Assembly: GCA_023441105.1 (NCBI GenBank)
Contig: JAEZQX010000196.1
Span: 1-28,266 of the forward strand
Direction: 5' to 3'
DNA length: 28,266 nt
Source: Pseudomonadota bacterium
GTDB taxonomy: Bacteria; Pseudomonadota; Gammaproteobacteria; Burkholderiales; Burkholderiaceae
The stretch's first letter is position 1. Every line of letters begins with the position of its first letter. The notes under the pieces were generated by a model. The model saw only the letters and a list, made by a program, of their open reading frames with translations. It was not told the DNA's origin and made no database searches. Positions 22 through 12,678 of the stretch are shown in pieces. Both the position numbers and the translations under genes were made by a program.

Positions 22-960
22 TCACGGCTGGTCGTCGTGGTCGCAGCCGTGGTGGACGTCGTCGTGGGCGTGGTCGTGGTCGTGGTCGTCCGCATGAGCA
101 TGACCACGGGCCGGAGCTTGTCCATGAACGTGCTCATGGTCATGGTCGTGGCCATGCGCAGGTTCATCGCCATGCGCATGTTCATGGCGGTGACCATGCT
201 CATGAGCGCTGGCTTGAGCTGCACCTGGCTGCTCGGCATGGTGATGGTGCGGGTCCTCGTCCACCCCATGCTCCAGGTCATGCAGCTCCTGGTGCAACAG
301 CTCGTCCGAAAGCTTCAACGAGAGCTTGTCGAGGCTCGCCAACGGACCTGCTTGCAGCCCGGTCTCGAGCGCAGCTTTCTCCACTTGTGCAGCGGCCACG
401 CCCTCGCCGACCAGCGCCATCGCCTCGTTGAAGAAGCTCTGCGCAACCCTGGTCGTGAAGAAGCCCGGTGCGTCGTTCACCACCAGCGACCTGCCGCCAA
501 GCCGGGCGATCAACTGGACAAGAATGTCCACGGTCTCAGCTGAGGACCCTGGCGTTCGGATCACTTCGACGATCGGCTTCCCATCGCCGGCGGTGTTCAA
601 GCCAAGGGCTGCGAAGTTCGATGGTCGCCTGAGCGCGGCCGACAGGGAGCCGACGCTCCGGTGACCGGCGATCGCCGCCATGATGGCGGAATCTGGAAGG
701 GCGGCTTCGAGCTCGCGGAGCAGGTGGGTTCGCCCGTTGCCTCGACGCTCGCGGGCATCGATCAGGAGAGAGCAACCAGCGAGATCGGCAGCGGCGCGAC
801 CCGCCGCGGCGTCGTCAGCCGGCGGCGACATCACCCGGATCGATACGTCGGTGCCGGCGCAGAGTTTCTCGATCCGGCTGGCTTCTTCCGCCGAACCCAG
901 GACCACGATGGACGCGCCGTGACTGGAAGCGGATTTGGAAAGGACGGAAGTATTGCCCAT
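22..960 (-). CDS. Degenerate 3-hydroxyacyl-CoA dehydrogenase-like protein with His-rich tail
   Basis: The middle of the protein matches the 3-hydroxyacyl-CoA dehydrogenase fold. An IVEVIRTPGSSAETV stretch is followed by LVVNDAPGFFTTRVAQSFFNEAMAL, the junction between the NAD-binding and C-terminal helical domains in FadB/FadJ-type enzymes. Key catalytic features are lost. The N-terminal GxGxxG loop reads VLGSAEEA, and the family HFFNP segment carrying the catalytic His reads GLNTAGDG. The last 90 or so residues hold about 28 His in HxH/DxH runs plus one Cys, a tail resembling the metal-storage tails of UreE- or HypB-like proteins. Dehydrogenase activity is unlikely, and metal binding or a scaffold role is inferred. 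I chose the ATG at 960, with AGGGA upstream, over an in-frame TTG at 1005 that has no ribosome site. No metal-transport gene lies nearby to support a function. Confidence 0.75.
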   Translation of the reverse strand: MGNTSVLSKSASSHGASIVVLGSAEEASRIEKLCAGTDVSIRVMSPPADDAAAGRAAADLAGCSLLIDARERRGNGRTHLLRELEAALPDSAIMAAIAGHRSVGSLSAALRRPSNFAALGLNTAGDGKPIVEVIRTPGSSAETVDILVQLIARLGGRSLVVNDAPGFFTTRVAQSFFNEAMALVGEGVAAAQVEKAALETGLQAGPLASLDKLSLKLSDELLHQELHDLEHGVDEDPHHHHAEQPGAAQASAHEHGHRHEHAHGDEPAHGHDHDHEHVHGQAPARGHAHADDHDHDHAHDDVHHGCDHDDQP

Positions 961-1281
961 GACATCCCTGGATCGCGGTTTCTCGGATGCTCCGCCGACC
1001 GACAAGAGCGGCAGGCTCGCGACGGAAGCAGTTCCTGACGGTTGATGATACCGTCGCTGGCGGACGCCACCGGGCCGGCCACGAGGGGCGCGGCACTGTC
1101 AGTTTCGGATCCGCCGCGGGATGTGCTGGATGACGACCAATGGCGTTTTCCATCCGCGCGGGGATGCGGCGTCGGTGGGCGTCATGGCGCCCTGGCGGAT
1201 GGCGGCGGGGGCGGTTCGGCTGGTTGGATCTCGACCGCCAATCCAGTGGCCGAGCCGGGCGTCGAAGCCTTCAGGACGCCA
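961..1281. other. Intergenic region, no gene recognised
   Basis: This 321-base stretch separates two minus-strand genes, the GGDEF/EAL protein and the His-tailed protein. Open frames crossing it on both strands look like GC-rich shadows, without ribosome sites or recognisable domains. I see no clear stem-loop with a T tract. A TATCAT hexamer on the minus strand (plus 1045-1050) could be a -10 box for the downstream gene, but it has no good -35 partner. Confidence 0.5.
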
Positions 1282-4263
1282 TCAGAAGAGGGCGGTCTGG
1301 CTCGCGCTCCAGCTTGGATTGGCCGCCACCTGCTCCGGGGACAGGGAGCCCTTCAGCAGGGCCCGGACCGTCGGTTCGGTGACGAGGTCGCCGCAGCTGC
1401 CGGCGAAAAGGAGTGCCTCGGGCGCCATCGGCTTCGCCAGCGCGTATCCCTGGCCGTAGTCCACCCCGAGTTGCATGAGCGTCGCGATGACGTCCGGTTG
1501 CTCCGCCCATTCAGCGACGCAGCGCTTGCCCAGTTCGTGCGACAGCTCGACGATCATCCGGGTGATCGCGTGGTTTGCCGGATTGTGGTTGATGTCGCGC
1601 ACGAAGCTGCCGTCGATCTTGATGATGTCGGCTTCGATTTCCCGCAGGTACGTGAACGAGGTGTAGCCTGCGCCAAAGTCATCGAGGGCGACCTTGCCGC
1701 CCATGGAGTGGACCCGCTCCGAGAAGCTGCGGGTGGCGCGACGATCGGCCAGCGCGACCGTTTCCGTGATCTCGAAGCAGAGCTTTGTCATCACGTTCGG
1801 GAAGTCCGCGATCATCGCGAAGATGTTGTCCACGAAGCGGGCATCGTTCAGCGACGAGCCGCTCAGGTTGATCGTCGCGTAGTCTAGCCGCTTCAGGTGC
1901 TCGGCGTGATCGTTGAGCCAGTGCAGCGTCTTCAGGAGCACCCAGCGGTCGATCAGCGACATCTGCCCGTTGCGTTCCGCCGCGGGAATGAAGCGTCCGG
2001 GAGAGATGGTTGCGCCGTTCTCGCCCCGCATCCTCACGAGGACCTCGTAGTTCAACGTTTCGAAGGCGGAGCGGAAGGATACGATCGGCTGGTACTCGAG
2101 GAAGAAGCGCTGCGAGTTGATCTTGTCCTGCAGGTTCTCCTGCACCTTCAGCTCCTCGAGGTAACCACGCAACGCAAGGTCCTGTTTCGCCATATGAACA
2201 ACCCGGTTGCGGCCCTTCAGCTTGGCCTCCGCACAGGCCTGGGAACTGGCAGCGATGACGTCGCGGACTTCCATGTCCTCGTCGATCGGCACCAGGCCGA
2301 CGCTCACGCTGACGGTCAGCACGCGACCCGCCACCTCGACTGGCCTGCTGCTGACGGCCTGGTGCAGCCGCTTGGCACAAGCCGCCGACTCGTCCTGGTC
2401 GCAGCTGAACAGGACGATCCGGAACGAGTCGCCGATCCGCGCGATCTCATCCCCCGGCCGCAGTTCTCCCAGCAAGCGATCGCACACTGCCGCCAGCAGC
2501 AGGTCACCCACCAGGTGGCCGTACAGGTCGTTGAGCGTCTTGAACCGGTCGATGTCCAGCTCGATCAGCGCGCAAGGCTTGCCCGAGGCCGCCATCTGGA
2601 CCGCGCGCTTGACCGCGTCGTTCAATCCGCGTTGGTTGAGGGCCTTGGTCTGGACGTCGTGGTCGACGAGGCGGGCAAGGGCGTTCTCGGCGGTCACTCG
2701 GGCTGTGACATCCTGAACTGATCCCTCAAGCCCTGTTTCGGCCTGTCGCGCGGTAAATTGAAGATGACGAAGCCCCTTGGCACTCGGTGACGCCACGACG
2801 ATGGTTTTTCTACTGTCATCAGCAGCGAGCATTCCGAGAAGTGCGGCATATGCATCCGCTCCGAACAGTGACTTAGCGTTGACACGTTCTCCCTTGCGGT
2901 GCTGAGCGTCAGCAGCCAGGTCAAACGTCCTAGCAAACGCGGCATTGTGGAGCGATATCTCCCCTGAGTCTTCGATCCGAAAGAGCCCGATGGGCATAGA
3001 TTCGTAGGTGTTAGCGAGATCCCGCAGGGCGATTATCTCGGACTCCTGTGCCCTTCGACGCTCAACGCGCTCAGCAAGAAAGCGCTGCGCAACGGTGATC
3101 GCCATCAGCAAGGCACCAGCTAGCGCGCCCGTACGGACATTGAAGAAGACATGGGGCGAGTGCAGCAGTCCCGATGTGTAGGCAATCTCGCCGGCCAAGC
3201 CTGCGAATGTCACTACCCAGAAGGAGGCATACCAGCGGTGTACATTGACCGAGGACTTTCGGAGGGCGGCAACAAGGGTGCACGCGACGAATATCATTCC
3301 GATACCCGCGGTGGTCCAGATTGCAGGGTAGTAGACCGGCGACTCCCAGAAGGGGGAAAGGGCCAATAGGCTAGCGAAGGCAGCGCAGATCAGGCTAAGG
3401 ATCTTTCCTGATCGAGTGCCTGTGAGTTCTCGATCGAAGAGCGCGCCAAAAAGGAGTGCTGTGAAGAGGCAGTGCAGGGCGAGCGAGCCGCCGAGGATGA
3501 TTGGGAGAGTTGTCTCGCTAAGGGTTTCAAACAGCCAATTTGTCGCCCAGCCATCGTTTACGGAAACAGTCCTGAGCGAGGTAAATGACCAAGCGGCGAA
3601 GAGCAGGAAGGTCCTGTCTTTCGCAATGAAGGCAATCAATGCGCCAAACAACGTCAGGAAGAGCAGGATCCCTATCGCGGATCCATTGACGTATCTAGCA
3701 TAGTCTTCCGCGACTAGAAACTGCGCAGGATGCCACGCGCGGATCTTTGGTCGTCTTGCGGAGGGACTTTGAGCTTCTAATATCAGCTCAATCGGACGTG
3801 CGGTTGCGTCGGCCGGGACAGTCACTACAGATCCACGGGTCCCGCTCTTGAGTCCTAGCTGCGTGTAGACCGGTTCTTCGGTTGCACTGCTGCCCGGTTG
3901 CACTCGCCACACTTGCCACTGTGAGGCGTGCAACTTGATCAACTCAAGGATGGTTCGCTCCTCCCTAGGAGCGGCCAAGACTATCCGTACCTTAAGAAAC
4001 AGCTTCCGACCTGGGGAAGGAGCCTCTCCTTCCTGGTCGCTTTGAAAGTCTTCACCCGAGCTTGAGCTTCTCGTTATCCGGAGGTACTGCGCTATTTCGC
4101 CTCTAGAGGCTAGGCTCAACTCAAGCGTCTTCGTGGGTAGCGAGCCGACGGAACTGCTTAGCAGGGATAACAGTAGCCATAGTCCTACTCCAACCGTTCC
4201 CAGAGCCAGTGTGGCACCAAGCAGGGCAGGCACGGACTTGGCGCGTAGCTGACGGGGAACCAT
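1282..4263 (-). CDS. 7TM-PAS-GGDEF-EAL membrane c-di-GMP phosphodiesterase (degenerate GGDEF)
   Basis: The order is an N-terminal membrane segment (about 12-35), an extracytoplasmic 7TMR-DISM-like sensor region (about 40-185), a seven-helix membrane block (about 190-400), a PAS-like domain (about 405-520), GGDEF (about 545-690) and EAL (about 725-985). The cyclase signature at 610-614 reads IGDSF instead of GGDEF, so c-di-GMP synthesis is unlikely, although an RPGD (RxxD-type) motif lies just before it. The EAL domain keeps its expected residues: EVL at 740, NLS, EITET, LDDFGAGY, IKID, AEWAE and QGYALAKP. A membrane-bound phosphodiesterase is therefore the best call. The coding sequence changes from lower GC (sensor and PAS half) to high GC (GGDEF-EAL half) near base 2700. 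It lies downstream of the acyltransferase gene on the same strand, 124 bases apart with a long hairpin between. The ATG at 4263 has no strong ribosome site. Confidence 0.9.
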   Translation of the reverse strand: MVPRQLRAKSVPALLGATLALGTVGVGLWLLLSLLSSSVGSLPTKTLELSLASRGEIAQYLRITRSSSSGEDFQSDQEGEAPSPGRKLFLKVRIVLAAPREERTILELIKLHASQWQVWRVQPGSSATEEPVYTQLGLKSGTRGSVVTVPADATARPIELILEAQSPSARRPKIRAWHPAQFLVAEDYARYVNGSAIGILLFLTLFGALIAFIAKDRTFLLFAAWSFTSLRTVSVNDGWATNWLFETLSETTLPIILGGSLALHCLFTALLFGALFDRELTGTRSGKILSLICAAFASLLALSPFWESPVYYPAIWTTAGIGMIFVACTLVAALRKSSVNVHRWYASFWVVTFAGLAGEIAYTSGLLHSPHVFFNVRTGALAGALLMAITVAQRFLAERVERRRAQESEIIALRDLANTYESMPIGLFRIEDSGEISLHNAAFARTFDLAADAQHRKGERVNAKSLFGADAYAALLGMLAADDSRKTIVVASPSAKGLRHLQFTARQAETGLEGSVQDVTARVTAENALARLVDHDVQTKALNQRGLNDAVKRAVQMAASGKPCALIELDIDRFKTLNDLYGHLVGDLLLAAVCDRLLGELRPGDEIARIGDSFRIVLFSCDQDESAACAKRLHQAVSSRPVEVAGRVLTVSVSVGLVPIDEDMEVRDVIAASSQACAEAKLKGRNRVVHMAKQDLALRGYLEELKVQENLQDKINSQRFFLEYQPIVSFRSAFETLNYEVLVRMRGENGATISPGRFIPAAERNGQMSLIDRWVLLKTLHWLNDHAEHLKRLDYATINLSGSSLNDARFVDNIFAMIADFPNVMTKLCFEITETVALADRRATRSFSERVHSMGGKVALDDFGAGYTSFTYLREIEADIIKIDGSFVRDINHNPANHAITRMIVELSHELGKRCVAEWAEQPDVIATLMQLGVDYGQGYALAKPMAPEALLFAGSCGDLVTEPTVRALLKGSLSPEQVAANPSWSASQTALF

Positions 4264-4319
4264 AAGCGCTGCATGCGGATTCTTGTAGTCGACAGCGCTA
4301 GAGTAGGGGCCGCCGATGA

Positions 4320-4380
4320 GTCGCTAGTGCCTCCGACAGACAATCGGCCGCAACCCAGCGATAGGCGGCAAACTAGCGAC
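4320..4380. repeat. Long imperfect inverted repeat (hairpin) between acyltransferase and c-di-GMP genes
   Basis: GTCGCTAGT at 4320-4328 is perfectly complementary to ACTAGCGAC at 4372-4380. Pairing continues inward as GCCTCC against GGCGGC, with a two-A bulge and one mismatch, giving an arm of about 15 bp. It lies after the stop of the acyltransferase gene and before the start of the GGDEF/EAL gene, so it could be a terminator, an attenuator or an RNA-processing site. There is no T tract on either side. It lacks the conserved GTT/AAC ends of an integron attC site. Confidence 0.5.
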
Positions 4381-4387
4381 AAATCGC

Positions 4388-5158
4388 CTACAAAAGCGTT
4401 CTTTGCATGGGCAACGCGGTCGTGAAGCCATTGTGCGCCTCGATCAGGTCGATCTGACGCAGAGCGTCCCGGCTAGGCGCCGGCGTGCTGCGACTCGGAA
4501 CGCTACTCAAGCTGTTGAAGACTTCGATCTCTTCGTGGTAGGTACGGAACAGGAAGTCGTAAAGGGGGCCTCCTAGTTGCAGCGCTGTGGCCTCCGCTTT
4601 CCTCGTCTCAAGTTGGAAAAGGTTGACGGGCCTCCCATGGACTATCTCCGGATGCAACAGGTTGCTCTGCGGAAAAACAGGCTGAAAGCCCCACGGCATG
4701 TACAACTTACTGCGGACATTCCCTACAAGAAGGAGCATCCGATCAACTTGCTTGGCAACACAGATTTGAAGGAGAGCCTTGTGCAGAAGCCCCCGTGCAA
4801 TCTTCTTCGCCACGGGCGATCCGATAGCGGCCATGCGTGAAAAATAGCCCAGTCGATCATTGGCATAGGCTCGCGGCAAGTCGATCTGGGCAAGCATTTC
4901 TCGAACGCCTGGGCCAGAGTTAAGGCGGGCTGTAGCGATAATCTGGGAAGTCGTTGCATCCTCCGCCAAGAGAATCACAGGATCGACCGTCCGGTCCAAG
5001 TCCTCCTTGATGGCCACATCGCCTGCCAACCCGGTCAGACGTTCGGCATACGCTTGATACCTCACCGCGACCGCTTGCTGGATCTGCTCCTCGGTTCGAG
5101 CAATACGTATACGTAGCCTAGGTGCCGCTTCTGCTTGCGGGATGTGCGCCATGTCCAT
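4388..5158 (-). CDS. FeeM/LuxI-like GNAT-fold N-acyltransferase
   Basis: This 256-residue protein resembles N-acyl amino acid synthase (FeeM) and autoinducer-synthase-like members of the GNAT fold. An RIARTEEQIQQAVAVRYQAY opening helix is followed by an acidic EDLDRTVDP segment, the strand IIATARLN, then LGYFSRMAAI, the helix ARGLLHKALLQICVAKQVDRMLLL, and YMPWGFQPV near the acyl-CoA/ACP-binding end. Such enzymes join an acyl chain to an amine-bearing small molecule in the cytoplasm. The substrate cannot be read from the sequence. I chose ATG 5158, which has AGAGGGA about eight bases upstream, over a TTG just before it. The gene has lower GC than the bulk of the window. It is transcribed toward the c-di-GMP protein gene and away from the hybrid kinase gene, with which it shares a repeat-rich control region. 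An exosortase-associated acyltransferase is an alternative, but no PEP-CTERM gene is visible. Confidence 0.72.
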   Translation of the reverse strand: MDMAHIPQAEAAPRLRIRIARTEEQIQQAVAVRYQAYAERLTGLAGDVAIKEDLDRTVDPVILLAEDATTSQIIATARLNSGPGVREMLAQIDLPRAYANDRLGYFSRMAAIGSPVAKKIARGLLHKALLQICVAKQVDRMLLLVGNVRSKLYMPWGFQPVFPQSNLLHPEIVHGRPVNLFQLETRKAEATALQLGGPLYDFLFRTYHEEIEVFNSLSSVPSRSTPAPSRDALRQIDLIEAHNGFTTALPMQRTLL

Positions 5159-5192
5159 CAAAGATTCCCTCTTCCGTTCTTACAAAATATCG

Positions 5193-5210
5193 ATGCCACT
5201 CAACTGGCAT
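5193..5210. promoter_or_regulatory. Palindromic operator candidate upstream of acyltransferase
   Basis: ATGCCACTCAACTGGCAT is a perfect 6-6-6 inverted repeat (ATGCCA, six bases, TGGCAT). It ends 35 bases before the chosen start of the acyltransferase gene, where an activator or repressor dimer could act. Its 18-bp length resembles LuxR-type boxes, but it lacks the usual CT...AG ends. The regulator is unknown. Confidence 0.4.
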
Positions 5211-5421
5211 TCAACAAAAACACCACATCATCTGCGCGTGAGCCCGTCAGATCTGGCACTGAAAACGAGGTCTGTATGCGTCTGCTCCATCGCGACCATG
5301 CTTAGTCGCGGCGTTGGAGCAGGGAAACGCCGATGCGGTTCACGCAGAGCGCGCTGAAGAAGGCCGCTGTACGTGGCCTAGAGGCATCCTCGCGACTCAG
5401 CCTGAAGAGGGTGGGGCGAAG

Positions 5422-5445
5422 CGAAGCCAAGGAACCCTGGCTTCG
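5422..5445. repeat. Hairpin with 8-bp perfect stem
   Basis: CGAAGCCA (5422-5429) and TGGCTTCG (5438-5445) pair perfectly around an eight-base loop in the acyltransferase-kinase intergenic region. There is no T tract after it on either strand, so a simple terminator is doubtful. It could belong to an untranslated leader or a small RNA. Confidence 0.4.
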
Positions 5446-5527
5446 GAAGTTCGGGGTGGCCCGGGCTTTCAAGACTCGAGAACATCTAGGCAGTTCCGTT
5501 GATTCAGCAAAGCAACTTGCTGGCCGT

Positions 5528-5550
5528 ACTTTAGGTCTTTTGGCCTAAGT
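5528..5550. repeat. Inverted repeat in kinase upstream region
   Basis: ACTTTAGG and CCTAAGT flank an eight-base spacer, pairing over seven bases with a one-base bulge. It lies about 180 bases before the kinase start. It may be an operator half-site pair or a weak hairpin. Confidence 0.3.
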
Positions 5551-5607
5551 CATCAAGCTTGTTCGGCGAACTTGACGCCGAAACTGTCTAAGAATCCTGC
5601 ACTATTC

Positions 5608-5623
5608 CATTGGCCGGCCGATG
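5608..5623. promoter_or_regulatory. Near-perfect 16-bp palindrome upstream of hybrid kinase
   Basis: CATTGGCCGGCCGATG is self-complementary except for one pair. It lies 107 bases upstream of the chosen kinase start. Partly overlapping it, CCTGCA (5596-5601) and TGCAGG (5622-5627) form another inverted pair. It is a candidate regulator-binding site, but no regulator can be named. Confidence 0.3.
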
Positions 5624-5729
5624 CAGGCTCGATGGAGGTTGTCCCACCCAGGAAGATCTCATTTCTTGGGGCGCGAAACGGTAAGCCACGCGCAAGGTAG
5701 CCGAGTTGGGGTGCACTTTGACGGAGGTG

Positions 5730-7601
5730 ATGTTGCACTCTCCACGCGTACTTGCGGAATGGTCGGAAAGAGCAAACCGCAGGGCCATTCCGCCGTCATT
5801 CTCTGATCCTTCTGCAGAGAGGCAGTTCATCGCTGACTACCGACTTGCGGGCTTGCAGTCTGTGGTCTTTGCTTGCTCTCTCGGAATCGCCGCCTACGTG
5901 GCACTCGGAGCGGTAGAGATAGCCTTCGCGGGTTGGAATGCTGAGGCCACCTTCCGGCGGATGATCGCTGTCGCGCTTCTGGCATTCGTAGTTGTCCTAA
6001 TTGCTACGCGGCCATTCCTGGTCTTAAGGCACTACAGCCTTCTACTTGGCTCCGTTGGAGCGATCACGGTAATCGGACTGATCTCGGTGATTCACCTGCT
6101 CAGGGACGAAGATGTCAGCGTCCTCGTGAATCCTGTTTCTCTCTTAGCACTTTGGATACTGTACGGATTCGTCAGGTTGCCGTTGCACGTTGCAATCTCC
6201 GTCGGGTTGCTGGGAAGCGGCTTTTCAATGTTTGGATCCCGGCTCACGAATATGCAGGCAGCCGGAGTAAAGACTTTCATCTATCTGCTCGTTGCAAATG
6301 CAATAGGCATATTGCTGGCTCGATCGATCGAGATTCGAGAGAGAAAGCTCTTCCTACAGAAGCTCGTGGCAGAGAGTGCTCAGATTGAACTTGCGCAGAG
6401 GACAATGGACGCGGAAAACGCATCAGCAGAGAAGACTCGTCTGTTGGCTGCTGTTGCTCATGATCTTCGGCAGCCGATGCTGTCGGCAGTGCTGCATTCA
6501 GAGGTGCTGCGGCATCGACTTGATGCGGGAGATGCGTCCGCTGTTAAACGACAGGCATTGAGAGTGGAGGAATCCGTAAAGGTATTAGGTGAGACGCTTG
6601 AGCATCTACTCGTCGCTGCACGATACGATGCCGGAACGGAACCAGTAGAGATAGGCCCTGTGGCGCTCGTTCGGCTATTCCATCGTCTACGCGAAGTCTT
6701 TGACTCGCAGGCGATATCCAAGGGAATTGAGCTGCGGATTTGTGAGCCTCGCTTAGACCTCCAGATCGAAACGAATGAACAGGCGCTCTTTCGAATCCTG
6801 ATGAATCTGGTTTCGAACGCGATCAAATTCACCGAACCTAAGGGTGGCGGTGGCGGAGTGTTGGTGAAAGCTAGCGTACGAGGAAGCGTCTGTAGGATAG
6901 TCGTCGCCGATACTGGAGTAGGCATAGAGCAGAGTAATCTATCCTCGATATGGCAGCCCTTCTTCCAGGTAGGAAATGAGGAGCGTAATCGAAGCAAGGG
7001 CTTAGGCCTTGGGCTATACATCGTGCAGCAGTCAATTCGGAGGTTGAATCGCCACTCGATCTCTGTTCGTTCAAGTTCGACGCTAGGCAGCCGGTTCGTA
7101 GTTGAGGTTCCTCAGCATGTAACTGGAGGAGAAGGCGCAATTGAGCATGAATCGCTGGATGAGCCTTCACCTTTGGATGGCGATACAGACCGCTCCGTCT
7201 CCAGCCTCAAGTTGCTTCATGGGCGCCATGTCCTTTTGATCGAGGATGATAGTGAAGCGCGTAACGCGATTGAGGCGCTACTTAACGAATGGGGGCTTCA
7301 CTGTTCTAGCGGTGTTGATGCAAGTGAAGTCCTTGCAAGATCATCAACAAAGGCTCGCGGGCCCATAGACTGGATAGTTGCGGATTTTCGCCTACCGGGG
7401 CCGGGGAATGGTGTACATGTGATTACAGAAGCGCGTCGTCTACTTGGCTATGAGTCACCAGCGATTCTTGTTTCCGCAGAGGTGGATCGAGAGAGTCTGA
7501 TTGCATTGCTTCCTCCCTCCACTACATACGTTCAGAAGCCATTCGAAGCGCGTAGCCTGAGGGTCGTTCTGCTTAGGATTGCGCAAAGGTTTAGTGGTTG
7601 A
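5730..7601 (+). CDS. Membrane hybrid sensor histidine kinase with C-terminal receiver
   Basis: About 623 residues. Roughly six hydrophobic segments (about 35-190) form the membrane sensor, then come a short coiled stretch, HisKA, HATPase_c and a receiver. The phospho-accepting His is H244 in AVAHDLRQP. ATP-binding boxes are NLVSNAIKF (around 360), DTGVGI and KGLGLGLYIV. The receiver (about 500-620) begins VLLIEDD, has Asp552 in VADFRLP and the conserved Lys in QKPF. No DNA-binding output domain is attached, so phosphate must pass to another protein or act on the kinase itself. I chose ATG 5730. GGAGG at 5723-5727 is unusually close to it, and an in-frame TTG at 5733 has better spacing. Lower GC than the flanking housekeeping genes suggests shared transfer with the acyltransferase gene. 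The 3' end overlaps the convergent DnaQ/Cho gene by 11 bases. Confidence 0.9.
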   Translation: MLHSPRVLAEWSERANRRAIPPSFSDPSAERQFIADYRLAGLQSVVFACSLGIAAYVALGAVEIAFAGWNAEATFRRMIAVALLAFVVVLIATRPFLVLRHYSLLLGSVGAITVIGLISVIHLLRDEDVSVLVNPVSLLALWILYGFVRLPLHVAISVGLLGSGFSMFGSRLTNMQAAGVKTFIYLLVANAIGILLARSIEIRERKLFLQKLVAESAQIELAQRTMDAENASAEKTRLLAAVAHDLRQPMLSAVLHSEVLRHRLDAGDASAVKRQALRVEESVKVLGETLEHLLVAARYDAGTEPVEIGPVALVRLFHRLREVFDSQAISKGIELRICEPRLDLQIETNEQALFRILMNLVSNAIKFTEPKGGGGGVLVKASVRGSVCRIVVADTGVGIEQSNLSSIWQPFFQVGNEERNRSKGLGLGLYIVQQSIRRLNRHSISVRSSSTLGSRFVVEVPQHVTGGEGAIEHESLDEPSPLDGDTDRSVSSLKLLHGRHVLLIEDDSEARNAIEALLNEWGLHCSSGVDASEVLARSSTKARGPIDWIVADFRLPGPGNGVHVITEARRLLGYESPAILVSAEVDRESLIALLPPSTTYVQKPFEARSLRVVLLRIAQRFSG

Positions 7602-9108
7602 ACGAGCAACTAAACCTCCCCGGCTCCCGACCCAATCTCCTCCTCAAGAGCTTGAATATCTCAGGGTGAAACTCCGGCGCCCCGAGCCGGGTGTCGTCAA
7701 CCAGGCACCAGTGATCGAAGACCAGGGTCTGGCTGCGGCCGGTGTCGGGGTTGGTCTCGGTGAATTTGACTGGGCCGGGAAAAGGCCAGGCAGGGAACTG
7801 GAGCGGGCCAAGTGCCTCGAGCATCCGCTGGTGGTGGGACTCAGGCGATTCCTGGCCGCAGCAGAGACCGGGGCAGCGTCCGATCTGCTTGGAGAAACAG
7901 GCACGGTCACCGGTCCACAGGCCGATGGCGCCATCGCAAAGTCGGTGGCGACGGCCGAGCTCGGCGAGGGCCGCCCGGGCTGCCGAGCGGGTTCCGAAGG
8001 GTCCGTGGAGGCCTTCGCTGTTCTCGGGCCGGAATTCGGCGAGGGGTAGGTAGGACGGGGGCTGGCCAGGCGCCGTCAGCCTGAAGAAACAGTTGGACTC
8101 CCGTCTGCGCAGCGCAAGGTTGTGCAGCGGGGTACTGGCTCGGATCAACTGGATCTCGCGGACTAGCGCGCAGAATTCTCCGGCGGTTTCCTCGACCTCC
8201 AGGCCGTAGGCCTCCCTGGAGAGGCGGGCATCGGTGCTGTTGCTGCTGTCGGCGTAAAAATGGCTGCGGATCCGGTCCCGCAGGTTCTTGGCCTTGCCGA
8301 TATAGAGCGGCTGCCGGTTGACGCCGAGGAAGGTATAGACGCCGGGTCCGTCGGGCAGGTCGTCGAGTGCGTCTTCGGAAAGGTGGTCGGGACGGGCTGG
8401 GTATTTGAGCAGGTGGCTCATGGCCTCTGCGAAGCGTCCCGGCCCTTCAGCCGGTCCATCCGCCTGCACGCAGTCCTCGGCCTGCGACATCCGCTGGAAG
8501 AACTCGGCAATCAGTCGCGCATCGCCGAGCGCCCGGTGGCGGGAGGCCCCGTCAAGCGAATGGCGCGCGATGAGCGCATCGAGTCCATGGCGATCGTATT
8601 CGGGGAACATCCGCCGCGACAGGCGCAGGGTGCAGAGGACGTCCGACTGGAAACGCTGGCCGAGCTGCCGGAAGGCGGCCTTGAGGAATCCATAGTCGAA
8701 GCGGGCATTGTGGGCAACGAAGACGCGGCCCGCGAGCTGTTCGCGGACCTGGTCTGCGACCGTCCTGAATGCAGGGGCGCCGCGCACCATGTCGTTGGTG
8801 ATGCCGGTCAGCGTCTGGATCTCCGGCGGTATGGCGATGCCGGGATCGACCAGCGTGCTCCACTCGCCGGTGCGCGTCCCATCGTCGACCCAGACGATGC
8901 CGATCTCGGTGATCCGGTCGCGCGACGGATCGGTGCCGGTGGTCTCGAGGTCGACGAAGGCATAGCGCCCGAGCCGGGCAGCACCGCTGACGGCAGCCTC
9001 CGGCCGACGATCTGTTGCTGCGGTAGCGGCGCCGTGATCGACATTGCCGTTGAAGCCGCTGCCCTCCGGGGCCGGCAGAAGGCGCAGGGCGGCCTCAGCT
9101 GACGACAT
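7591..9108 (-). CDS. DnaQ-like 3'-5' exonuclease fused to Cho/UvrC-type GIY-YIG endonuclease
   Basis: The N-terminal domain (about 46-210) is a DEDDh exonuclease: VDLETTG (Asp53, Glu55), HNARFD and HRALGDARL give the ExoI, II and III motifs. The second part matches the UvrC N-terminal/Cho nuclease: GVYTFLGVNRQPLYIGKAKNLRDRI is the GIY-YIG core, with a later Glu in EFCALVREIQLI, and a Cys-containing RCPGLCCGQ segment follows. Cho makes the 3' incision in nucleotide excision repair. The fused exonuclease could trim the nicked end, but that is inference. Similar two-domain proteins are known in actinobacteria and proteobacteria. The ATG at 9108 lies inside the end of the upstream thioesterase gene (14-base overlap) without its own ribosome site, suggesting translational coupling. 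Confidence 0.88.
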   Translation of the reverse strand: MSSAEAALRLLPAPEGSGFNGNVDHGAATAATDRRPEAAVSGAARLGRYAFVDLETTGTDPSRDRITEIGIVWVDDGTRTGEWSTLVDPGIAIPPEIQTLTGITNDMVRGAPAFRTVADQVREQLAGRVFVAHNARFDYGFLKAAFRQLGQRFQSDVLCTLRLSRRMFPEYDRHGLDALIARHSLDGASRHRALGDARLIAEFFQRMSQAEDCVQADGPAEGPGRFAEAMSHLLKYPARPDHLSEDALDDLPDGPGVYTFLGVNRQPLYIGKAKNLRDRIRSHFYADSSNSTDARLSREAYGLEVEETAGEFCALVREIQLIRASTPLHNLALRRRESNCFFRLTAPGQPPSYLPLAEFRPENSEGLHGPFGTRSAARAALAELGRRHRLCDGAIGLWTGDRACFSKQIGRCPGLCCGQESPESHHQRMLEALGPLQFPAWPFPGPVKFTETNPDTGRSQTLVFDHWCLVDDTRLGAPEFHPEIFKLLRRRLGREPGRFSCSFNH

Positions 9109-10624: not shown

Positions 10625-11887
10625 ATGAATCTGGTTGCACGCGTCAAGGCGATCCTGCTCGATCCGACAGCCGAATGGCCGGTCATCGACCAGGAGTCGC
10701 ATACGGTCAAGGATCTCTATCTGTCCTACCTGCTGCCGTTGGCCGGCATCGCCGCCCTGGCCACCCTGATCGGCGCGATGTTGTGGGGCTACAGCGCCGG
10801 ACCGGTGACCGTCCGCTACGGCTTCGGCGAGGCGCTCAGCGTCGCCATCCTGGGCTTCGTCATGACCCTGATCGTGGTCTACGTGCTGGCGTGGATCATT
10901 GCAGCGCTGGCGCCGACTTTCAAGGGTGAGAAGAACTTCCTCAAGGCGTTCAGCGTCGCTGCGTTCAGCATGACCGCCTCGCTGGTCGGCAGCTTCTTTG
11001 CCATCCTGCCGGCGCTTTCATGGCTGATCGGCCTGATCGGCGGACTCTACTCGCTGTACCTGCTCTACAAGGGCCTGCCGGTGCTGATGAAGACGCCGTC
11101 GGAGAAGGCGCTCGGCTACACGGTGGTGGTGGTGATCGCCGCCATCGTCTGCAACGTGATCGTCGGCGCCGTCCTGGGAAGCCTGATGCCCAACCCCTGG
11201 AGCAGCGTCGGCGCGGGCGCGGCCGGCGGTTCCGGCTCCGAGATCACCATCAAGACGCCGGCGGGGGAGGTATCCACCACCCAGGGCAAGCTCGAGGAAA
11301 TGGGGCGCCAATTGGAGGCTGCGGACAAGAAGGTCGAGCAGGCGAGCCAGAACCAGGATCCCAAGGCCGTGTCGCAGGCGGCGTCGGAAGCGGTGGCCGC
11401 CGTCACCGGGGTGGTTCCCGGCGGGGGCCGGGTCGCCTTGTCGTCGGACACGCTCAAGAACTGGCTGCCGGCGACACTGGACGGCATGAAGCGCGAATCC
11501 TTCGAGGTACAGGGCGGCGCCGCGATGGGGATCGCCGGGACGACCGCGCGGGCGACGTACCGGGAGGGCGATCGGGAAGTCGACCTCGAGGTGCTGGATG
11601 CGGGTGGCGCTGCCGGGATCCTGGCGATGATCAGCGGCTTGGCGAGCGGCGAGCGCGAAACCGAGACCACCCACGAGAAGTCCTACCAGGTCGACAAGCG
11701 CAAGTTCACCGAGAAGCGCTGGAAAGACGACAGCGAGGCGGAGCTCAGCATCGTGCTGGCCAACGGCGTGGTGGTGACGGCCAATGCCCGCGGCGTGCCG
11801 ATGAAGACGCTGATGTCGTCGGTGAAGGCCCTCGGACTGGAGAAGCTCGAGGCGGTGCAGCCGGCACCTGCCGCCGGCAAGGGGTGA
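10625..11887 (+). CDS. Yip1-family inner-membrane protein with long soluble C-terminal extension
   Basis: Residues 1 to about 190 are a Yip1/DUF1282-type domain. The opening MNLVARVKAILLDPTAEWPVI is characteristic, and about five hydrophobic helices follow. The family is usually about 200 residues, and this protein has 420. The extra part has a Gly/Ser linker, a charged coiled stretch (EEMGRQLEAADKKVEQASQ), then an alpha/beta-looking region with repeated strands such as GTTARATYREGDREVDLEVL and AELSIVLANGVVVTANARG. I do not recognise that region. The ATG at 10625 was chosen by family alignment, and a second ATG lies 12 bases upstream. The open frame continues far upstream only because of GC-rich shadow reading. 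The function of bacterial Yip1 proteins is unknown. Confidence 0.85.
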   Translation: MNLVARVKAILLDPTAEWPVIDQESHTVKDLYLSYLLPLAGIAALATLIGAMLWGYSAGPVTVRYGFGEALSVAILGFVMTLIVVYVLAWIIAALAPTFKGEKNFLKAFSVAAFSMTASLVGSFFAILPALSWLIGLIGGLYSLYLLYKGLPVLMKTPSEKALGYTVVVVIAAIVCNVIVGAVLGSLMPNPWSSVGAGAAGGSGSEITIKTPAGEVSTTQGKLEEMGRQLEAADKKVEQASQNQDPKAVSQAASEAVAAVTGVVPGGGRVALSSDTLKNWLPATLDGMKRESFEVQGGAAMGIAGTTARATYREGDREVDLEVLDAGGAAGILAMISGLASGERETETTHEKSYQVDKRKFTEKRWKDDSEAELSIVLANGVVVTANARGVPMKTLMSSVKALGLEKLEAVQPAPAAGKG

Positions 11888-11958
11888 GGCGCGCAAGCGC
11901 GGCGTCGCCGCCCCGCGGCAGCGGTCCCCTGTGGGCAGCAGTCAGGCAAGGCCGCGGC

Positions 11959-12678
11959 TCACGAGAACGTGATGTAGGGCCGTCGGTCCTTGGTATCGAG
12001 ATGCGGGATGTTGTTGAAGCTGACCAGGTAGGCGCCCCGGTCGTTGAAGCGGATCTCGCAGAAGCCGCTGTTGCGCACCTGCAGATTGAGCGCCACGAAG
12101 CTCGCCGGCGGCATCTCCAGGTGGTGCGCAACGATCGATGAAATCGGGCCTCCGGAGCTGACCACCAGCACCCGCTCGACCGGACCGTCGCTGCCGGGCT
12201 GGCAAGCCTGCCGGAACGCCTGGTAGGCACCCTCCTGGAACTCCCTGAAGCTGCGGTGCGCACCCGGGTCGATCCGGCCCAGCGTCCAGTCGGTCAAGGC
12301 GGCTCGCAGCAGGCGGAAGTGCTCCTTGCGCGAACCTTCCGCATCGGCCGCCGGCATCGGCTGCGGCTCCCCCCGCTCGTCCTGCAGTGCCGCCAGGTGC
12401 GCCTGGACCAGACGCTCGGGATCGTATTCGTCGAGCCGCTCGTCCAGATCCGCCTGCCGCAGCGGGACGCCCGCCTCACTCACGCTCGCGACCACGCCCT
12501 CGACCGTTTCCCGGTGGCGGCGCAAGGTACCCGAGACGATGCGGTCGAAGCGGACGTCGCGCTCGCGGAAGTATTCCCCCAACCATCGGGCCTGCCGGTG
12601 TCCGAGCTCCGTCAGCCGATCGTAGTCGTCGGTGCCGAAGGCTGCCTGCGCGTGCCGGACCAGGTAGAGATCTGCCAT
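11959..12678 (-). CDS. Histidine phosphatase (phosphoglycerate mutase-like) family protein
   Basis: The 239-residue protein opens with MADLYLVRHAQAAFG, whose His9 is the phosphoryl acceptor of the RHG family. SGTLRRHRET provides the second Arg and DERLDEYD the acid. The segment that normally carries the second catalytic His (usually HGG) reads SSGGPISSIVAHHL, with Ser in its place. The substrate could be a phosphoester, a phosphosugar or a phosphohistidine protein. The ATG at 12678 was chosen because the family starts there, although the frame is open further upstream. It faces the Yip1-family gene tail to tail. Confidence 0.85.
   Translation of the reverse strand: MADLYLVRHAQAAFGTDDYDRLTELGHRQARWLGEYFRERDVRFDRIVSGTLRRHRETVEGVVASVSEAGVPLRQADLDERLDEYDPERLVQAHLAALQDERGEPQPMPAADAEGSRKEHFRLLRAALTDWTLGRIDPGAHRSFREFQEGAYQAFRQACQPGSDGPVERVLVVSSGGPISSIVAHHLEMPPASFVALNLQVRNSGFCEIRFNDRGAYLVSFNNIPHLDTKDRRPYITFS

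Follow-up and report, generated by a model that had tools for sequence, protein, structure and literature searches.

What is a FeeM/LuxI-fold protein doing between a membrane c-di-GMP protein and a divergent hybrid histidine kinase, and does it make a signal or read one? The three genes, called A, B and C here, lie in a Burkholderiaceae contig, of which we analysed a stretch of 28,266 nucleotides (the window). The function of the A-B-C unit is something that we infer throughout. Compared loci and genomes are numbered with the prefixes L and G, respectively.

Gene content of the locus

Table 1. Features of genes A, B and C in the window
Feature	Positions	Strand	Description
Gene A	1282..4263	-	993-aa membrane c-di-GMP protein
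A residues 44-177	3733..4134	-	predicted periplasmic beta-strand domain (structure model, local pLDDT about 49-82)
A residues 191-394	3082..3693	-	7TMR-DISM_7TM (PF07695, E 4.2e-12)
A residues 602-614	2422..2460	-	RPGD (I-site RxxD), then GDSF replacing GGDEF
A residues 709-945	1429..2139	-	EAL domain (PF00563, E 4.8e-62); 8/8 checked motif residues present
Gene B	4388..5161	-	FeeM/LuxI-fold (GNAT) protein of 257 aa; ATG at 5158 is the probable start
B Tyr106	4844..4846	-	sits where the family has its catalytic Glu, three residues before invariant Arg109
B-C gap	5162..5705		between divergent genes; no repeats found
Gene C	5706..7601	+	hybrid histidine kinase of 631 aa with six predicted TM segments; ATG at 5730 is the probable start
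C residues 52-204	5859..6317	+	six-TM sensor region of the C family
C His252	6459..6461	+	predicted phospho-acceptor (HDLRQP)
C Asp560	7383..7385	+	predicted phospho-acceptor of the receiver

The initial annotation had read A as a 7TM membrane sensor with an EAL output, which agrees with its matches to PF07695 and PF00563. From the N- to the C-terminus, A consists of a TM anchor, a periplasmic beta domain, the 7TM region, a PAS-like region, a degenerate GGDEF domain and the EAL domain. Hydropathy averaged over the family gave one anchor plus seven TM segments, and the Pfam matches included 7TMR-DISM_7TM at 46.9 bits (cut-off 29) and GGDEF at E 3.6e-27.

C had been described as a divergent membrane hybrid kinase without an output domain, and Pfam found in it only HisKA (26.2 bits, just under the 26.9 cut-off), HATPase_c and a receiver, with no output or Hpt domain. 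The HisKA histidine, the HATPase_c domain and the receiver aspartate were all present, assigning C to the hybrid histidine kinases, and the hydropathy profile of its sensor in the window showed six TM segments. Matches to kinase models, NahK and LuxQ among them, were confined to the C-terminal part; the nearest was the NahK/ErcS model NF041832, at 202.9 bits and thus below its cut-off of 400. All 23 C proteins in the alignment had the phospho-acceptor histidine; the receiver was missing in L039 and cut at the contig end in L041. The C protein of L043 has a degenerate receiver, in which the aspartate was lost and the histidine kept.

Window B had no match in Pfam, where the FeeM cut-off was not reached, and only weak OlsB matches in NCBIfam. 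TIGR03694 did not match it, nor seven of eight other B proteins, the eighth (L079) giving a weak match of 19.7 bits against a cut-off of 111.95. The structure model of B (pLDDT 79.8) had FeeM (2g0b) as its best match with both structure-search programs, and the LuxI-type synthases BjaI, RpaI, TofI, LasI and EsaI were among the next Foldseek matches. The Pfam FeeM cut-off was passed by four relatives of B (L002, L091, L065 and L079), L002 being the only trio-type protein among them, and other relatives fell just below.

Just downstream of A, the window encodes a protein resembling 3-hydroxyacyl-CoA dehydrogenases, its tail very rich in His and of metal-binding appearance (22-1005, minus strand). 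Members of this family were also downstream of A in L001 (3934-4812), L035, L039 and L051, and in L002 the contig end truncates a His-rich open frame at that place (3-494). On the other side, a gene that joins a DnaQ-type exonuclease and a UvrC/Cho-like GIY-YIG part in one protein (7591-9108, minus strand) converges with C, the 3' ends of the two genes overlapping by 11 bases.

The long repeat-rich control region described earlier is absent, as no repeats were found in the B-C gap. The lower-GC stretch was real in the window and recurred only partly in relatives: A and B had a lower GC content than their flanks in each of the 28 trio-type loci for which both genes were listed, C was lower in most loci and not all, and the drop was absent at several loci of the B-A pair described below.

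Conservation of the trio and spread of the B-A pair

A protein database contained 31 B proteins, as well as 35 C proteins that a gap in the scores sets off as a sharp family; both sets include the protein of the window. When named genomes were scanned with the C sensor, two Burkholderiales MAG contigs were retrieved, L001 and L002 (genomes G001 and G002), both carrying the trio in the window's order and orientation. Both genomes fall in one Burkholderiales family of 74 genomes, and the B profile matched 36 of these. Profiles of A, B and C were run against the stretches around all B-profile matches. The resulting set of 31 trio-type B loci comprises the window and 30 loci of this family (L001, L002, L035-L061 and L070).

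The layout C- B+ A+, with C divergent and A downstream of B on B's strand, was found in 25 of the 31 trio-type loci, a count that includes some loci cut by contig ends as well as L038, L039, L053 and L001, the last with a small open frame separating C from B. The proteins of the conserved-layout loci were 20-30% identical to those of the window. A followed or adjoined B in 29 of 31 loci, the remaining two (L042 and L070) lying at contig ends, and C adjoined B in 28 of 31. The exceptions were L037, with a weak C on B's strand; L058, where B is divergent from A and C lies elsewhere in the genome; L060, where B-A was seen without C and a C gene occupies another locus of the same genome; and L061, where a weak C lies beyond A as seen from B. 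In L053 (3885-10582), B is intact and both A and C are broken up between frames, reflecting module decay or sequencing errors.

The most widespread flanking gene family occurred in 11 of 31 compared loci (L062 included, L070 left out). Of the 74 genomes, 29 carry A, 28 carry B, 31 carry C and 27 carry the full set; Fisher values for these counts overstate independence because the genomes are kin. Equal lengths of the longest contig recorded for database proteins hint at further linkage of B with C (19940, 5149 and 260425), A with B (13371 and 17762) and A with C (2491365 and 35361). The neighbourhood and co-occurrence check that the initial annotation had proposed thus came out in its favour, and A, B and C are a conserved unit.

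Across the order, B was detected at E 1e-8 in 19 of 399 sampled genomes, 12 of them outside this family; the class sample gave 1 of 369 and the phylum sample 5 of 398. The trio and pair loci all belong to one order. In the 12 B loci outside the family, A came directly after B every time, and no C-sensor match lay within about 7.5 kb of any of them (0/12), the full C profile giving weak kinase-type matches (20-64 bits) at L092, L094 and L095. With A beside B in all 12 outside loci and that kinase lacking, the B-A pair is the wider core, and C marks one family.

A second group of FeeM-like paralogues (L062-L069 and L071-L077), present in many of the same genomes, had neither an adjoining C nor a full-length A; L063 showed two weak A-like open frames. 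At L096 (2959-10849, genome G012), relatives of A and C flank a different acyltransferase-like gene (7041-7799, minus strand) with a weak TIGR03694 match of 20.0 bits, possibly a replacement of B in this single case.

The glutamate site of B and the GGDEF site of A

In the alignment, the residue three places before Arg109 was Glu in all 12 pair B proteins, all 15 second-group B proteins and four TIGR03694 proteins (one spurious open frame was left out of that comparison set). By contrast, Glu was absent from all 31 trio-type B proteins, which carried Tyr (12), His (8), Gly (4), Gln (3), Phe (2), Ala (1) or Trp (1). Among the 31 database B proteins, the site held Tyr in 26 and Phe in four, the remaining one being partial and without a pattern match. 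In the profile of Glu-bearing proteins, which matched FeeM at E 0.059, this Glu aligned with the Glu of BjaI WEWSR and TofI WELSR; the ExSR Glu of the LuxI family was not found in window B. Going by the LuxI alignment, FeeM Glu95 would be at the same position. Replacement of Nas354 Glu103, which has been equated with FeeM Glu95, abolishes synthase activity (PMC4897644).

Residues common at positions 155 and 179 in the Glu-bearing groups were likewise not kept in trio-type B, in which R34, E53, D56, R79, R109, K128 and C134 were invariant. In the B tree, which has some long-branched rows of uncertain placement, the 27 Glu-bearing proteins fell together on one side of a single branch (98/92). 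As one branch separates Glu-bearing from Glu-less B, the loss of Glu and the linkage to the kinase may have been one event. The B proteins of L058 and L060 also lack Glu, although no C adjoins them; C is elsewhere in both genomes. The description of B as a FeeM/LuxI-like acyltransferase was borne out for the fold, and not for the catalytic Glu or a Pfam FeeM match. Judged from its sequence, window B could be a pseudo-synthase that binds acyl groups, or else an enzyme whose chemistry has changed.

For A, 39 full-length proteins including that of the window were compared, truncated and split proteins having been left out. The EAL-site residues E, N, E, D, D, K, E and Q were present in all 39, and the GGDEF motif was intact in 28. 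Window A has no active diguanylate cyclase motif GG(D/E)EF. An RxxD I-site was found in nine of the 11 proteins without an intact GGDEF (window included; the nine are kin and not independent) versus none of the 28 with one; the A proteins of L001 (GADTF) and L047 (GGDEL) had neither. This distribution suggests that window-like A uses its GGDEF domain to sense c-di-GMP and gate EAL, making A a putative c-di-GMP-gated phosphodiesterase, to which the 'trigger phosphodiesterase' idea (PMC5052742) is related. The simplest reading of the intact-GGDEF proteins would be a cyclase or a GTP sensor without product inhibition.

Candidate mechanisms and known systems

The reading that we prefer, with a probability of about 0.4, is that the trio is a Burkholderiales signalling unit tying a FeeM/LuxI-fold protein to c-di-GMP turnover, with B as a pseudo-synthase. 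A would act as a membrane receptor, detecting a ligand through its 7TM/periplasmic part and thereby controlling how fast the EAL phosphodiesterase works; in window-like A, the GGDEF domain would no longer cyclise GTP, and c-di-GMP bound at the I-site would gate EAL. Glu-less B, in which the fold and the remaining family residues persist, would most likely bind acyl-ACP, acyl-CoA or an acyl-amine and report lipid or signal status to C and/or A instead of making a signal. C would pass phosphate via its own receiver to an unlinked Hpt protein or regulator, the Hpt being a guess by analogy. Somewhat lower odds go to the more specific scenario that trio-type B is a catalytically dead LuxI/FeeM homologue turned receptor subunit, which binds an acyl ligand, controls the kinase and a c-di-GMP-gated phosphodiesterase, and evolved from an active synthase-receptor pair persisting in other Burkholderiales.

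The initial annotation had proposed that the acyltransferase product could be sensed by one or both membrane proteins and change c-di-GMP. Its c-di-GMP link gained from the EAL residues of A, and its product-sensing step was weakened, since the loss of Glu in every trio-type B and its retention in all 27 pair and second-paralogue proteins make that step doubtful for the window. A related proposal, which we hold tentatively as a serious candidate, has trio-type B as a working acyltransferase whose chemistry has changed, its product being a diffusible N-acyl signal, perhaps methylated in some lineages, that is sensed by C and/or A and lowers c-di-GMP. The FeeM/LuxI fold, the conserved synthase-receptor neighbourhood and the invariance of R34, D56, R79 and R109 all speak for it, and the Tyr or His that often fills the Glu site could support other chemistry, but the varied replacements also include Gly, Ala, Phe and Trp. 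Further in its favour, four loci have a methyltransferase gene beside B on the opposite strand (L037 8245-9009, L038 8332-8973, L039 6670-7434 and L042 1-582), located between B and A in L037-L039 and adjoining B in L042. The L038 member, from which the domain match comes, resembles ICMT/PEMT-type membrane methyltransferases. An ICMT-like enzyme could methylate a carboxyl group, which suggests a carboxyl-bearing product and would favour product formation in those lineages. N-acyl alanine methyl esters exist in Roseovarius, where an antibiotic role is favoured for them (PMC11580390). At the pair locus L091, a LysE-type translocator gene (11345-11962, plus strand) follows A and could export a small product.

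Another reading, which is improbable, takes B for an enzyme of lipids or biosurfactants, or for what remains of one, with A and C merely regulating surface behaviour and nothing being sensed: A, B and C travel together with few exceptions, and B keeps eight invariant residues despite the loss of Glu, even if N-acyltyrosines from B's enzyme family have surfactant properties and a fusion of a FeeM-type with a PilZ domain has been described (PMC4897644). That the neighbourhood is a byproduct of chance or shared ancestry would fit its confinement to a single order and the kinship of same-family genomes, but is scarcely credible when flanking genes change while the trio stays, and when the B-A pair holds in 12 of 12 loci outside the family. 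The pseudo-synthase reading and its active-synthase counterpart both have the three proteins (or just A and B) working jointly, with c-di-GMP as the end point. Glu-bearing pairs set against Glu-less, kinase-bearing trios would be a natural experiment in turning a signal maker into a signal reader, and a further testable prediction comes from A, where GGDEF was lost and the I-site retained.

No description of the trio or pair unit was found among the literature matches listed, which mostly exclude subscription papers; to that extent, the earlier remark that the trio is not a described system stands. B shares its fold with FeeM and the N-acyl amino acid synthases (PF21926), whose Pfam cut-off four B relatives passed, but window B differs in lacking both a Pfam match and the catalytic Glu. 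In Nas343 and Nas354, the FeeM fold is tied to c-di-GMP by a fused PilZ domain (PMC4897644), whereas the trio's link would be a separate EAL receptor. The LuxI-type AHL synthases BjaI, TofI and LasI share the fold too, with the R, E..D, R and SR landmarks aligning, and B differs from them by its absent Glu and by its partners, a kinase and an EAL protein. The active-site landmarks of the PEP-CTERM/exosortase-associated acyltransferases (TIGR03694) align with B as well, but window B has no match to this model, the cut-off of which was passed in only three of 74 genomes, at other loci. Synthases linked to exosortase are reportedly the subject of Craig 2011.

In LuxM-LuxN and CqsA-CqsS, a synthase is paired with a multi-TM hybrid kinase, LuxM feeding LuxN. 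Likened by gene layout, the trio also has a synthase-like gene beside a multi-TM hybrid kinase without an output domain, and differs by its Glu-less FeeM-fold protein and the added c-di-GMP receptor. In the Rpf/DSF systems (RpfF-RpfC-RpfG and RpfF-RpfR), the crotonase RpfF feeds RpfC or RpfR. The trio is not a member of them, as B has a GNAT fold and not that of an RpfF-type crotonase synthase; C, moreover, has no Hpt domain in Pfam, and A has a 7TM sensor. Like them, it would join a lipid-signal gene, a membrane hybrid kinase and a c-di-GMP phosphodiesterase as one logical unit, so that, by analogy, its logic is that of known lipid-signal systems.
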